52,963 bases of DNA from an uncultured Clostridium sp. Its GTDB lineage: Bacteria; Bacillota; Clostridia; TANB77; CAG-508. The notes under the pieces were generated by a model. That model saw only the letters and a list, made by a program, of their open reading frames with translations. It ran no database searches and was not told where the DNA came from. A program made the position numbers and the translations under genes. The DNA lies in NCBI GenBank assembly GCA_946409935.1, contig CAMJYG010000010.1, positions 1 through 52,963 of the forward strand, given 5' to 3'. Every line of letters starts with the position of its first letter. Position 1 is the stretch's first letter. Shown one piece after another: positions 47,836 to 52,963 of the stretch.

Positions 47836-47886
47836 AACAAATGTAAAAAAGGATTAAAAAAACTTAAGAAGGGATTGAATGCAAAA

Positions 47887-50643
47887 ATGAGTATATTAAA
47901 CAAAATATTCAAATCTTATAGTGAGAAAGAAGTAAAGAGAATAATGCCATTAGTAGAGAAAATTAATGGATTAGAAGAAGAAATGTCAAAATTAAGTGAC
48001 AGTGAATTAAGAGGAAAAACAGATTATTTTAAAAAGCAATTAGAAGAAGGTAAAACATTAGATGATATATTACCAGAAGCTTTTGCTGTTGTAAGAGAAG
48101 CTTCAAAAAGAGTATTAGGAATGAGACATTTTGATGTGCAATTAATAGGTGGTATTATATTACATCAGGGTAGAATTTCAGAAATGAAAACTGGTGAAGG
48201 AAAAACATTAGTTGCAACACTTCCAGTTTACCTAAATGCATTAGAAGGTAAAGGTGTTCATGTTATAACAGTAAATGATTATTTGGCTAAAAGAGATAGC
48301 GAATGGATGGGAAAACTATATAAATTTTTAGGGTTATCTGTTGGTTTAGTAATTGCTGGAATGGAACCTGTTCAAAAACAAGAAGCATATAATGCTGATG
48401 TAACTTATGGAACAAATAATGAATTTGGTTTTGATTATTTAAGAGATAACATGGTAATATACAAAAATCAATTAGTTCAAAGAGGATTACATTATGCAAT
48501 TGTAGACGAAATTGATAGTATTTTAATAGATGAAGCAAGAACACCACTTATTATATCTGGACGTGCAAATGAATCTTCAGATTTATACAAAAAAGCAGAT
48601 AACTTTGTAAAAAAACTTACTCCTAAAGTTATTGTTGAAGAAGATATTAAAGATTTTAACCAGGCAGAAGATAATGAAAATTATGATTATATAGTAGATT
48701 TAAAAGCAAAATCTGCATCATTAACAGGTAAGGGAATAAAAAAGGCAGAAGAATTCTTTGGACTTGAAAACTTTAACGATTTGGAAAACTCTAACTTAGT
48801 ACACCATGTAAACCAAGCTTTAAGAGCACACGGAGTTATGAAAAAGGATACTGATTATATAGTAAAAGATGGTGAAGTTCTAATTGTTGATGAATTTACA
48901 GGTCGTATTATGTATGGAAGAAGATATAATAACGGATTACATCAAGCAATAGAAGCAAAAGAACATGTGAAAATAGCAGATGAATCTAAAACACTTGCTA
49001 CAATTACATTCCAAAACTTCTTTAGAATGTATGACAAATTATCTGGTATGACAGGTACAGCTATGACAGAAGAGGCAGAATTCCAGGAAATATATAATTT
49101 AGATGTTATTGCTATTCCTACAAACAAACCAATGATTCGTAATGATGAAAATGATGTTATATACAAAAATGAAAATGCAAAATATAGAGCAATAGTAGAA
49201 AGCATTAAAGAAAGTAACAAAAAAGGACAACCAGTATTAGTTGGTACTGTATCTATTGAAAAGTCTGAAAAATTAAGCAAGCTTTTAAAACAAGAAGGAA
49301 TAAAACACGAAGTTTTAAATGCAAAATATCATGAGAAAGAAGCGGAAATTGTTGCTCAAGCTGGTAAATTTGGAGCTGTAACAATTGCTACAAACATGGC
49401 TGGTCGTGGTACCGATATTATGCTTGGTGGAAACAGCGAATTTTTAGCTAAAGAAGAAATGAGAAGAAATAAAGTTCCACATCAATTTATAGAAGAAGCG
49501 GATACATATTATGAAACAGATGACCAAGATATTCTAAGAGCTAGAGAACAATTCAGAAAACTAGTAGAAAAATACGATGAGCAAATTAAAGAAGAAAAAG
49601 AAAAAGTAATAAATGCTGGTGGTCTAAAAATAATTGGTACAGAAAGACATGAATCAAGAAGAATTGATAATCAGCTACGTGGTCGTTCTGGTCGTCAAGG
49701 AGATGTTGGTGAATCTAAATTTTATATTGGATTAGATGATGACTTAATGAAAATATTTGGTGGAGATACTATAACTAAAGTTTACAATACTTTAGGTGCA
49801 GATGAAAATATGCCAATTCAAACTAAAATTATATCTAATGCCGTAGAAAATGCTCAAAAGAAAGTTGAAGGAAGAAACTTCAGTATTCGTAAAAACGTAT
49901 TAAAATATGATGATGTAATGAATGCTCAAAGAGAAATAATTTACAAGCAAAGAAGACAAGTATTGGACGGAGAAAATATTCATGATAGTATAGTTTCTAT
50001 GATTGATTTTGTATCTAGCAATATTGTAGATATGTTTGTAAATGTTGAAACATCAGAAATAAACATAGAATCACTAAACACTGAAATATTAAACATCTTT
50101 GGAATAGAAATGTTAAACTATATTAAAGAAAATAAAAATGATTCTCAAGCTATTTCAGAAGAATTAAATAAAAAAGCTATGGAAATATACGAAAACAAAG
50201 AAAAAGAAATTGGTTCTGAAGAAATGAGAGAGCTTGAAAGAGTTGTAATGCTTAAGGTTGTAGACGAAAAATGGATGAATCATATCGATAGCATGGATGA
50301 ATTGAAAAATGGAATAGGACTTAGAGCATATGGACAAAAAGACCCAGTTGTACAATATAGACTAGAAGGATTTGATATGTTCGATGAAATGATAAATGAC
50401 ATAAAAGTAGATGTAACAAAAATATTAATGCATATTAGACAACAAGGAGAAGCTAAAAGACAAGAAACTGTAAAAATTACAGGTGCAGCATTAGAAGCTA
50501 TTCATAGTGTGGATGGTGGTTCTAAAATTGGCACAGATGTAGATAGAACTGTTAGAAATGAAGGACCTAAAGTAGGAAGAAATGATCCATGTCCATGTGG
50601 AAGTGGGAAGAAATATAAGAATTGCTGTGGAAGAAATCAATAA
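47887..50643 (+). CDS. secA: Preprotein translocase ATPase SecA
   Basis: From the ATG at 47887, 13 nt after AAGAAGGGA, the protein has 918 residues. Motor motifs [46 protein letters not shown] and the arginine-rich [11 protein letters not shown] are intact. The C-terminus has the SEC-C zinc motif [14 protein letters not shown] for SecB/lipid contact. It drives protein export through SecYEG. A TTG start 12 bp earlier is less well spaced. Confidence 0.97.
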
Positions 50644-50707
50644 TATCAAGGGCTGCAGAGATTTATACAAATTGACATAAATGCAAAAATCAAGCATTTG
50701 TTGCCAA

Positions 50708-50788
50708 TTTGTCGCCAAATCAATAAAATCTGTTGCCAAAAATGCTCGAAAGTACTTATTTATCAATAGATATAAACTTGGCGACAAA
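50708..50788. repeat. Inverted 11-bp pair before the integrase
   Basis: TTTGTCGCCAA (50708-50718) and TTGGCGACAAA (50778-50788), with further TTGCCAA copies between. They may be recombinase arm sites or the attachment region at the edge of the integrated element. No core direct repeat could be paired because the far end is outside the window. Confidence 0.5.
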
Positions 50789-50812
50789 ATAAAATATAAA
50801 AATATTTATATT

Positions 50813-50844
50813 GACTGACATTGTAAAAGATGCCAGTCTTTTTT
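50813..50844 (+). terminator. Rho-independent terminator upstream of the integrase
   Basis: GACTGACAT pairs with ATGCCAGTC (one mismatch), then six Ts. Confidence 0.7.
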
Positions 50845-50881
50845 CTTACAATCGTTATTTGCAGATTGGAGGAAAAATAAA

Positions 50882-52147
50882 ATGGTAAATGTAAGAAAAA
50901 GAGGTAATGTTTATGAGTACAGTTTTGATGTTGCTAAAATTGAAGGCAAAAGAAAAAGAGTAAGTAAGTCTGGTTTTAAAACAAAAGCTGAGGCTTTAAA
51001 GCAAGGAACGATAGCCTATAATGAATATTTGAATACAGGAAGAAATGTTAAGATTAATGAAATGAGTTATTCAGATTTTTTGGATTACTGGTTAGATAAT
51101 CATTGTAAAATCAATTTAAAATATCATACCATAGAAGCATATAGTAATATAGTTAAAAATCATTTAAAACCTAATTTGGGCTTTTATAAACTATCTCAAA
51201 TAACTAAAACAACTCTACAAGAATTTTTGAATAAGGTATATGTTGAAAAAGGATATAGTAAGAATTTTTTAAACAATATTAGAAAAGTATTAAAATGTTC
51301 ATTTAATTATGCAACAGACAATGAATATGTTAAAGTTAATCCCGCATTAAATTTAACATTACCAAAATATGATATTCCACCAAATGACCCAGCTCATATA
51401 TTTACAAATGAAGAAATAAATCTTATTTTAGATAGGTTTAAAAACAATCATTGTATATATTATGCTTTTTTAACTGCATATTGTACTGGATTAAGAGCTT
51501 CAGAAGTATTTGCACTTACTTGGAATGATATTGATTTTAAAAATAAGACAATCAGTGTAAATAAAAATATATTGAAGAAGAATCAAGTAGGTGGAACAAA
51601 GAAAAGACATATAAGTGGAAATTCAACTACAGTATGGTATTTTGGAACTTGTAAAACAGAAACAAGTTATAGAACTATAACAATAGGCGACACTTTACTA
51701 AATGCCCTAAAAACTTATAAGAAAGAACAAGAAGAAAATAAAAATAATTATGGTGATACATATATGAAACATTACAAAAAGAGTGTTATAAATCTATATA
51801 ATAACAAAACTGAAACAAAAATAGTAAATGCATATTCAGAAATTGATGTTGCATTGGAAGAAGTGGATTTTGTTTTTGTAAAGAAAAATGGAGTATATGA
51901 GGGGACGGATAGCTGTAAATACCCTTTTAAAGTTATTCACTATGAACTTGGTATTCCTTGTAGATTTCATGATTTTAGAGATACTCATGCAACAAAATTA
52001 ATTGAATCAGGAGCAGATATAAAATCTGTTTCAAAAAGATTAGGACACAGAAATATTGATATAACTTATAATATTTATGTAAGGGTAACAGAGAAAATGG
52101 AGAAAGAAACTGCTGATAAATTTGAAACGATTTGTAAATTTTTGTAA
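50882..52147 (+). CDS. Tyrosine-type integrase of an integrative element
   Basis: A protein of 421 residues. The N-terminal AP2-like arm-binding domain (VRKRGNVYEYSFDVAKIEGK) precedes a SAM-like domain and the catalytic domain. The catalytic residues are in GLRASEV (Arg), FHDFRDTHAT (HxxR), LGHRNID (His) and TYNIYV (Tyr). This is the Tn916/phage-type Int layout, unlike the shorter XerD at 1974. A roughly 50-residue insertion (ISGNSTTVWYFGTCKTETSYR) is family typical. RBS GGAGG. It marks the left end of a mobile element beyond secA. Confidence 0.9.
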   Translation: MVNVRKRGNVYEYSFDVAKIEGKRKRVSKSGFKTKAEALKQGTIAYNEYLNTGRNVKINEMSYSDFLDYWLDNHCKINLKYHTIEAYSNIVKNHLKPNLGFYKLSQITKTTLQEFLNKVYVEKGYSKNFLNNIRKVLKCSFNYATDNEYVKVNPALNLTLPKYDIPPNDPAHIFTNEEINLILDRFKNNHCIYYAFLTAYCTGLRASEVFALTWNDIDFKNKTISVNKNILKKNQVGGTKKRHISGNSTTVWYFGTCKTETSYRTITIGDTLLNALKTYKKEQEENKNNYGDTYMKHYKKSVINLYNNKTETKIVNAYSEIDVALEEVDFVFVKKNGVYEGTDSCKYPFKVIHYELGIPCRFHDFRDTHATKLIESGADIKSVSKRLGHRNIDITYNIYVRVTEKMEKETADKFETICKFL

Positions 52148-52153
52148 AAATGA

Positions 52154-52182
52154 TTGACAATCTGCGAAAATGATGGTATAAA
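52154..52182 (+). promoter_or_regulatory. Consensus sigma-A promoter of the large RNA
   Basis: TTGACA, exactly 17 nt, TATAAA, starting 7 bp after the integrase stop codon. The start of transcription is expected near 52189. Confidence 0.85.
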
Positions 52183-52188
52183 ATAAGT

Positions 52189-52771
52189 GTATTCAATAGG
52201 AATACAACTGAAAAATTAAATATAGATATTTCCCTGTTGTAGGTTGAGACATGAATTTGCATTATGATTAAGGTGGTTAACTATTAATAGTTAAAAAAGT
52301 ACTTCGCAAGAAAATACTTTACCCTACTGATCGGAAGCCAGAAGTATATGGAGCCCTTTTGTTAGTTTCGTAGGCTCGAGTTGGTTTTTATAATCACTAT
52401 GATTATAATATAATAATCTCCAACAAATAGATAGAAGTAATAGGAAGTCGTAAGTGCTACAGATGTCTTATTTAATTCACAGTAAACAAAAATATAATAA
52501 TGTCCAAAAACAGATATGTATTGGGCTTATTAAAAGATACTTTTTTAGAAAAGAAGTATGTTTGTTTATTGTGGATTAAATAGACTTCTAGATATCTCTT
52601 ATGACTTTTTTGATATTCAAAAAAGTTAAGAAAAATTTTATGCAAGTATGCAAAAATTTTTCAGTAAGAGTAAACGGAACTTCTGTATCATTTAATGGCT
52701 TTTATAGGGATTTATTTTGGTATATAGATATTGATATAAGGTTTCGTTTATAAAAAAGCGAAGCCTTTTTT
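52189..52771 (+). ncRNA. Large structured non-coding RNA (ROOL/GOLLD-like class)
   Basis: About 580 nt between a consensus promoter and a terminator, with no coding frame. Visible helices: an 18-nt palindrome at 52277-52294; AAAGTA/TACTTT (52297-52320); GAGCC/GGCTC (52351-52377); TTATAATCA/TGATTATAA with a 3-nt loop (52388-52408), enclosed by GTTGG/CCAAC (52380-52424); AAGTCGTAAG/CTTATGACTT (52445-52607), enclosing a 23-bp broken helix of 52465-52490 with 52561-52585; inside it ATACTT/AAGTAT (52537-52559); a hairpin with a 10-bp and a 4-bp helix at 52630-52662; and TATCA/TGATA (52686-52736). Scale, branching and location beside an integrase resemble ROOL, GOLLD and similar giant RNAs of phages and mobile elements. 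Family identity is not established. Confidence 0.75.
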
Positions 52772-52772
52772 T
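52739..52772 (+). terminator. Terminator of the large RNA
   Basis: AGGTTTCG (52739-52746) pairs with CGAAGCCT (52759-52766), with one G-T wobble, followed by seven Ts. Confidence 0.85.
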
Positions 52773-52805
52773 GATGTAATGCTACTTGCTAGAAAGGAGG
52801 AAAAT

Positions 52806-52963
52806 TTGGAAGATTTAAAAATTATTAATGCAGATAACTTATTATATACTTCATTAAATGAAAGTGAATTTATAATTGATGAAATATTGCCAGCAGGACT
52901 TCATATATTTTGTGGAGCTCCAAAAGTAGGCAAAAGTTGGCTTATGCTTGATTTATGTATTAA
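52806..52963 (+). CDS. AAA ATPase, RepA/AAA_25-like, 3' end outside window
   Basis: The TTG at 52806 follows AAAGGAGG by 5 nt. The 52 visible residues end with ILPAGLHIFCGAPKVGKSWL, a Walker A loop in the setting typical of RepA/AAA_25 replicative helicase-like ATPases of mobile elements. The gene directly follows the large RNA. Only the N-terminus is seen. Confidence 0.75.
   Translation, partial: MEDLKIINADNLLYTSLNESEFIIDEILPAGLHIFCGAPKVGKSWLMLDLCI

Follow-up and report, generated by a model that had tools for sequence, protein, structure and literature searches.

At the 3' end of contig CAMJYG010000010.1, from assembly GCA_946409935.1 of an uncultured Clostridium sp., a long non-coding RNA gene lies between a gene for a tyrosine integrase and a gene for a RepA-like ATPase (Table 1). 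The window is the whole stretch of DNA that was analysed, 52,963 nucleotides (nt), and positions are counted from its first letter. It is nearly certain that 52189-52775 specifies a structured RNA that is conserved and strand-specific; its promoter and terminator are conserved as well, whereas no reading frame is. Such RNAs are found in uncultured Clostridia in at least five subgroups, A to E, typically directly 5' of a replication gene (rep) or a MobV-type relaxase gene (mob) of small mobilizable elements. The RNA of the window belongs to group A. Here we describe this RNA and its relatives and propose that it may act on the leader of the gene that follows it.

Table 1. Features in and around the RNA gene, in window coordinates.
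Feature	Position	Strand	Remarks
Tyrosine integrase	50882-52147	+	PF00589; probably of a neighbouring or tandem element
Promoter TTGACA-N17-TATAAA	52154-52182	+	Read directly: TTGACA 52154-52159, 17-nt spacer, TATAAA 52177-52182
Structured non-coding RNA, group A	52189-52775	+	About 580 nt from predicted start to terminator; fold z -9.5; homologues with identical bounds; tree-aware covariation
5' hairpin	52189-52205	+	At predicted transcription start; consensus fold, 98.6% of cells paired
Conserved 5' strand ACTGAAAAATT	52207-52217	+	Complementary to 52655-52665; common to groups A-D
Long arm	52445-52607	+	Helices 52445-52454/52598-52607 (alternative partner 52683-52701) and 52465-52489/52562-52585; inner helix 52502-52506/52522-52526
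Putative anti-leader hairpin	52630-52662	+	Loop AAGTAT 52644-52649, closed by GC/GC; 13 pairs, 98.1% of cells paired
Intrinsic terminator of the RNA	52738-52774	+	Hairpin 52738-52767 and U-run; conserved in groups A and B
Proposed target GCTACTTGC in rep leader	52781-52789	+	Complementary to the hairpin loop
Shine-Dalgarno of rep, AAAGGAGG	52793-52800	+	Read directly
RepA-like AAA_25 ATPase, first 52 residues	52806-52963	+	TTG start; continues on contig C68 (L163); homologues match PF13481 (AAA_25)

A sequence-only reading of this DNA had placed an ornate non-coding RNA, with a consensus promoter, a clear terminator and no plausible frame, between an integrase and a RepA-like ATPase, and all of these parts have held up. 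The upstream neighbour matches the integrase family PF00589, and homologues of the downstream gene match PF13481. The promoter, confirmed by reading, lies 7 nt 5' of the predicted start of the RNA and recurs, at an 11/12 match with a 17-nt spacer, in all 14 distinct group-A upstream stretches; an automated promoter scan omitted it because the scan requires a T at position 6. The terminator is weak on its own (1 found by scan, 0.9 expected in shuffles) and is conserved in 12 rows of alignment A3 and 8 rows of alignment A4. The RNA folds with a minimum free energy (MFE) of -157.8 kcal/mol (z -9.5), and none of 100 shuffles is equally low. No ATG frame runs through all 12 homologues compared, in which the longest such frame spans 23-50 amino acids (aa). 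Of the long helices proposed from the sequence, that at about 52465-52490/52561-52585 is present in the consensus fold as 52465-52489/52562-52585, and 5 of its 23 pairs have changed on both sides. The helix 52445-52454/52598-52607 stands in part. It is retained in 9 of 12 group-A sequences, and in group E the equivalent helix carries a compensatory change (GUCGUAAG/CUUAUGAC vs GCCAUAAG/CUUAUGGU), so that the helix enclosing the arm changes in step between groups A and E; it is lost, however, in the other three, and the group-A consensus fold prefers 52683-52701 as the partner of 52445-52454. The conserved strand at 52445-52454 has two mutually exclusive partners (52598-52611 and 52683-52701) and, by eye, the 3' strand of the arm enters a U-tract in groups A, C, D and E. 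The competing partners and the U-tract are a possible candidate for an internal attenuator.

Among 390 genomes of the family, blastn found full-length homologues with identical ends (query 1-583 or 1-587) and 66-91% identity in nine other genomes (G148, G324, G172, G178, G352, G349, G146, G295 and G106), and sampling 385 genomes of the order yielded four more (G458, G492, G483 and G464). An exact pattern of the 3' hairpin matched 26 contigs in a collection of 84,980 species, all of them titled Clostridia, Clostridium, Clostridiales or Clostridiaceae. Comparison with A, B or C references by blastn, or else reading, assigns 25 of the 26 to the RNA family, several of them carrying the same copy; the last (L060) was judged a chance match on reading, as were the short blastn matches L021, L023, L025 and L026. 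RNAs of the family are about 300-590 nt long. Group A precedes an AAA_25 RepA gene; groups B, C and D precede an oriT-like repeat (origin of transfer) and then a Mob_Pre relaxase gene; group E, with different ends and a different interior, lies before a mob gene of the same kind as B-D. Groups A-D have in common the 5' hairpin, ACTGAAAAATT directly after it, and a 3' hairpin whose loop resembles TATGCARGTATGC; they differ in the middle. Groups A, B and E have by eye a common core, AAGTGC ... TTATTAAA. Truncated copies also occur: L014/L052 lacks the 5' part, and L020/L044 and L024 consist of the hairpin without the interior and are possibly deletion remnants. The hairpin of L020 precedes an oriT-like repeat, and a transfer-messenger RNA (tmRNA) is encoded a few hundred nt away; that of L024 is in a different setting.

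Substitutions among the relatives agree with a structured RNA. The RNAalifold structure of alignment A3 (12 group-A sequences; near-duplicates L012 and L043, G464 and partial copies left out) pairs 94.7% of cells, and 21 of its 149 pairs show changes on both sides, where letter shuffles give 10.1 and slid controls 2-7. A tree-aware null, in which changes were re-placed at random on a FastTree tree, gives 8.7 ± 2.3, and none of 1000 simulations was as high, so the covariation that the sequence-only reading had named as a test of its RNA is present. In group C (13 sequences, 142 pairs) there are 8 double changes against a null of 2.5 ± 1.3, again with 0/1000 as high, and in group E (9 sequences), which is too conserved to inform, 0 against 0.1. 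The consensus structures were derived from the same alignments as were tested, which favours them, and further pair types in A3 point in the opposite direction to the other measures (55 vs 61.4 in shuffles). One member each of A, B, C and E and two of D fold with z from -5.6 to -9.1, with 0/60 shuffles as low in each.

The strand is indicated by 152 G-U pairs vs 20 A-C pairs in the helices, and by an MFE below that of the reverse complement in 12 of 12 group-A sequences. Such asymmetry would equally fit a + strand that folds as single-stranded DNA and works as a lagging-strand origin, or as a transfer-associated structure by oriT. Rolling-circle plasmids have lagging-strand origins of this sort, the single-strand origin (sso) elements, and groups B-E adjoin a relaxase gene and a MobV-like oriT, which probably resembles that of pMV158. 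The structure begins, however, at the predicted start site of a promoter and has a terminator in groups A and B, the RNA of group A precedes rep with mob further on, and the complementarity described below would be left unexplained. We regard a role as single-stranded DNA as very improbable.

What points to a function is the loop of the 3' hairpin. In the window GCAAGTA can pair with TACTTGC at 52783-52789 in the rep leader; the loop itself is AAGUAU here and AGGUAU or UAGGUA elsewhere. Of 26 loci of groups A-D examined, one (L041) is without a leader, and in 25 of the 25 readable next-gene leaders a complement of the loop stands beside a GAAAGG Shine-Dalgarno. On reading, the complement is at least 6 nt long and includes G-U pairs in L007 and L070; many of the loci are close relatives. 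Two of these, L057 and L070, were missed by the strict pattern and found by reading. A separate protein search gave 30 mob loci: 12 with a C/D-type hairpin, all 12 with a Watson-Crick match of 7-10 nt; 15 of group E; and L102, L111 and L129, which were not classifiable. The predicted duplex of the window has -14.7 kcal/mol, against a best of -10.6 and a median of -4.8 for 129 background leaders, from which 15 element-type leaders had been taken out by motif. None of the 129 is as good, and this is so for 13 of the 14 loci in the test, for L007 by only 0.1 kcal/mol; L017, the 14th, scored -5.0 at a wrong GAAAGG, and its true leader is complementary by reading. When 18 chosen loop-leader pairs were permuted (group labels assigned by us, that of L106 provisionally), the matched mean was -15.98 vs -13.92 ± 0.58, with 0/5000 permutations as low.

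Loop and leader also change together. Loop AAG occurs with leader CUU in A, AGG with CCU in B-D, and UAGGUA with UACCU(A/G) in part of C, A to G changes in the loop being accompanied by U to C in the leader; a loop variant in L070, GUAUAUCUGC, pairs through two G-U. The leader motif TACYTGCNRGAAAGG has a single occurrence in its own 2.1-Mb genome, at 52783, and 46 occurrences in 42 of the 390 family genomes, where the reversed control gave 0. Among 29 loci fetched from the leader-motif search, 15 are correctly spaced before mob or RepA genes; in the other 14 the next frame is of 0-78 aa, or of 302 aa (L087), and is not mob or RepA. Of nine RepA loci that carry the RNA, 8 show the motif by script, and the ninth, L139 (the same as L083), has it on reading. 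The motif was found in none of ten RepA relatives at 55-60% identity (L143-L152). Eight of these, three of which were inspected over the whole stretch, have a frame of 127-128 aa that ends 134-138 nt before rep, at the position expected for the RNA, so that no such RNA lies directly upstream; loop-like strings in three RepA relatives fall inside this frame, and in L151 a frame ends 258 nt upstream of rep. L143-L150 and L152 share a different leader hairpin (CTAACTGAAAAG...CTTTTCTTCAGCTAG) before the Shine-Dalgarno, which is maybe another control device.

From these sequences we propose, at what we judge to be even chances, that the RNA is an upstream, sense-oriented antisense or leader RNA that limits the synthesis of Rep or Mob, and that groups A-E are a family of regulators of small integrative mobilizable elements. 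The near-consensus promoter would make the RNA, and the conserved hairpin near its 3' end would display a loop of 5-6 nt. This loop would pair, by kissing or as an antisense, with the leader directly 5' of the Shine-Dalgarno of the next gene, which is rep in group A and mob in groups B-D. Ribosomes would load less readily on a leader paired in this way, and Rep or Mob would be made sparingly. Repression might then rise as copies of the element multiply; in copy-control RNAs such pairing gives negative feedback on plasmid dosage. We infer transcription, the pairing itself, repression and not activation, the stage of action, action in trans and the sensing of dosage alike. In group A, rep would most simply be transcribed by read-through from the promoter of the RNA, since only the terminator and about 30-40 nt lie between the RNA and the rep start. 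If rep is made by read-through, pairing could act both in cis, as a leader, and in trans, as an inhibitor.

The same short distance from terminator to rep start leaves little room for another promoter, and it suits a simpler account, in which the RNA is a leader acting in cis only. It would be a riboswitch- or attenuator-like 5' untranslated region of the rep or mob operon that toggles between helices and so decides read-through, with an intramolecular contact between loop and leader. The two competing partners of the arm helix and the U-tract that its 3' strand enters in groups A, C, D and E would fit this account. In groups B-D, however, an oriT-like repeat and 164-431 nt separate the hairpin from the mob leader, an arrangement that is odd for a pure attenuator. 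A leader acting in cis only is in our view a possible alternative, though a doubtful one.

Other observations weigh against limitation of Rep or Mob by loop-leader pairing. Group E retains the leader TACCTRC, yet its longest hairpin match is 4-6 nt in 9 of 9 loci measured. Its 7-nt complement, GUAGGUA, is found in the long arm instead (15 of 15 loci), where it is paired in the fold, and this GTAGGTA site is the best 14-mer in the five RNAs tested. Because the leader is kept while the hairpin match is so short, there may be another reason why group E conserves it, or the pairing site may have moved. Truncated copies (L020, L024 and L014/L052) have the hairpin without a complementary leader, and no clear terminator was seen by eye in groups C and D. 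The specificity of pairing is also limited. Only 4 of 18 loops have their own leader as the best-ranked partner, and the loops of L007, L057 and L132 pair better on average with other leaders. A-type leaders do not distinguish A from non-A loops (-13.3 with either); A loops pair less strongly with non-A leaders (-11.2), while for non-A loops the best pairing is with their own (-15.7). Variants of loop and leader are few and related by descent. Finally, in L152, a RepA relative without the motif, the non-coding stretch upstream of the gene (L152 850-1500) folds with -112 vs -92 for its complement, and it may be some other structured RNA.

The element that carries the RNA extends beyond the window. 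The window contig (C10) shares its last 55 bases, without a difference, with the end of contig C68; this second contig holds the remainder of RepA and then, by likeness, mob, a helix-turn-helix (HTH) protein and an integrase. Because the element continues on C68 and ends there in another integrase-like frame, the integrase at 50882-52147 is probably not its own. Five group-A loci with long flanks have the order RNA, RepA, MobV relaxase, HTH_17 protein and tyrosine integrase by likeness, and Pfam identifies the last three genes of L064 (PF00589, PF01076 and PF12728) and also the mob of L065. With an integrase and a MobV relaxase and, as judged from lists of open reading frames only, no conjugation pore of their own, they are integrative mobilizable elements. 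The sequence-only reading had seen the RNA as the first transcript after the integrase. An integrase does precede it in the window, but this is partly a coincidence: G146 (L065) has no preceding integrase within the stretch examined, and the element's own integrase is the last gene in the five group-A loci. In the window (47875-52147) the integrase comes directly after secA, whose 3' flank may be the integration site. Direct repeats that might mark attachment (att) sites were sought in five other group-A loci, with no convincing result.

Groups B-D travel in elements of another make. At one locus per group (L046 by Pfam, L069 and L070 by likeness), they hold mob, a small TnpW-like protein and a serine recombinase and resemble relatives of Tn4451, an element in which TnpW and TnpX have roles. 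A group-C mob protein has 95% identity over 419 residues to proteins of five plasmids of Klebsiella, Citrobacter, Enterobacter and Salmonella (two), and in the same five enterobacterial plasmids the hairpin-to-mob stretch has a 91% match. A promoter, a group-D-like RNA, hairpin, oriT-like repeat and leader are all present in the Klebsiella pneumoniae IncHI2 plasmid pD610-HI2 (NZ_MG288680.1, 5340-6060; L132), the annotation of which includes TnpV and TnpW. Directly 5' of this RNA are a GNAT gene and an aminoglycoside resistance gene. Tn4451-type elements have the same MobV relaxase, TnpW-like small protein and serine recombinase, whereas group A differs in having RepA, mob, an HTH protein and a tyrosine integrase instead; the one 'RNA' mention met in a review of them is not shown to be such an RNA (PMC5704250).

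RNAs of comparable size and ornate fold are known. The sequence-only reading had raised kinship with ROOL, GOLLD or HEARO as one possibility, and the Rfam search does not support it. Rfam 15, which we take to include models of ROOL, GOLLD, HEARO and OLE, gave no match in the window at gathering score. Up to E = 10 there were eight matches in 50640-52963, all far below gathering, and up to E = 1 in 18 related loci only chance-level matches to RNA apart from a tmRNA and a transfer RNA in L020; none of these was to ROOL, GOLLD, HEARO or OLE, and the covariance models place neither the window nor the related loci in any of the four. The phage link of such RNAs was not seen here either, as scanning IMG/VR with one exact hairpin pattern gave 0 matches and blastn of the group-A RNA region against phage and plasmid records gave none; blastn of a group-C region against E. 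coli genomes gave none as well. Size class and ornate fold are shared with HEARO. They are likewise shared with ROOL, GOLLD and OLE (PMC12286853); the present RNA differs from all four in that no covariance-model match or phage link was seen and in that one of its loops is complementary to the next gene's leader.

Closer in mode of action would be the antisense RNAs of plasmid copy control, such as RNAI of ColE1 and CopA of R1. In these, too, a hairpin loop matches a replication-gene leader close to the Shine-Dalgarno. Complementarity of this sort between loop and leader is found in groups A-D, but not in the hairpins of group E or in the three truncated copies. Copy-control RNAs are countertranscripts of the same DNA, whereas the present RNA lies upstream with promoter, fold and terminator on the rep strand, is about 300-590 nt long and also occurs before mob. 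RNAII of pMV158 is a further example of a plasmid copy-control antisense RNA (PMC6540685).

By analogy, the nearest precedent is the sgm-sRNA of Salmonella Genomic Island 1 (SGI1), likened here by description and not by sequence. It is a long, self-encoded RNA of a mobilizable island, with a primary transcript of 650-700 bases, and lies by oriT and a relaxase-like gene; it differs in being required for mobilisation, and its primary transcript can double as mRNA (PMC9299015). A positive factor of this kind, whose loop would activate translation or guide the relaxosome, would suit a self-encoded RNA beside a relaxase gene and oriT as in SGI1. A pairing that abuts the Shine-Dalgarno is known more often to block translation than to help it, however, and group A precedes rep and not mob. 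We consider a positive factor for mobilisation improbable.

Antisense control in a mobile element is of a known kind, and no such RNA turned up in searches of open-access literature; apparently new to us are the class of RNA, its size, the modularity of its interior and its layout upstream in the sense direction. A bolder extension, which we hold tentatively and think rather unlikely, is that these are modular regulatory RNAs. Between fixed ends, the 5' hairpin and the anti-leader hairpin, would lie an exchangeable ornate domain, different in each of groups A-E. This domain would respond to a signal, for example a helper conjugative element or excision of the element, by opening or closing the loop through which translation of rep or mob is controlled, making the RNA a governor of copy number and transfer in integrated elements. 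How small mobilizable elements restrain their replication and transfer genes is poorly known, and the RNA offers a testable device before rep and mob. The device occurs in many gut Clostridia, and a related form is found in an IncHI2 plasmid with a resistance gene nearby. ROOL and GOLLD are still without a plausible target (PMC12286853); unlike these, the RNA described here is an ornate long RNA for which a plausible target can be offered.
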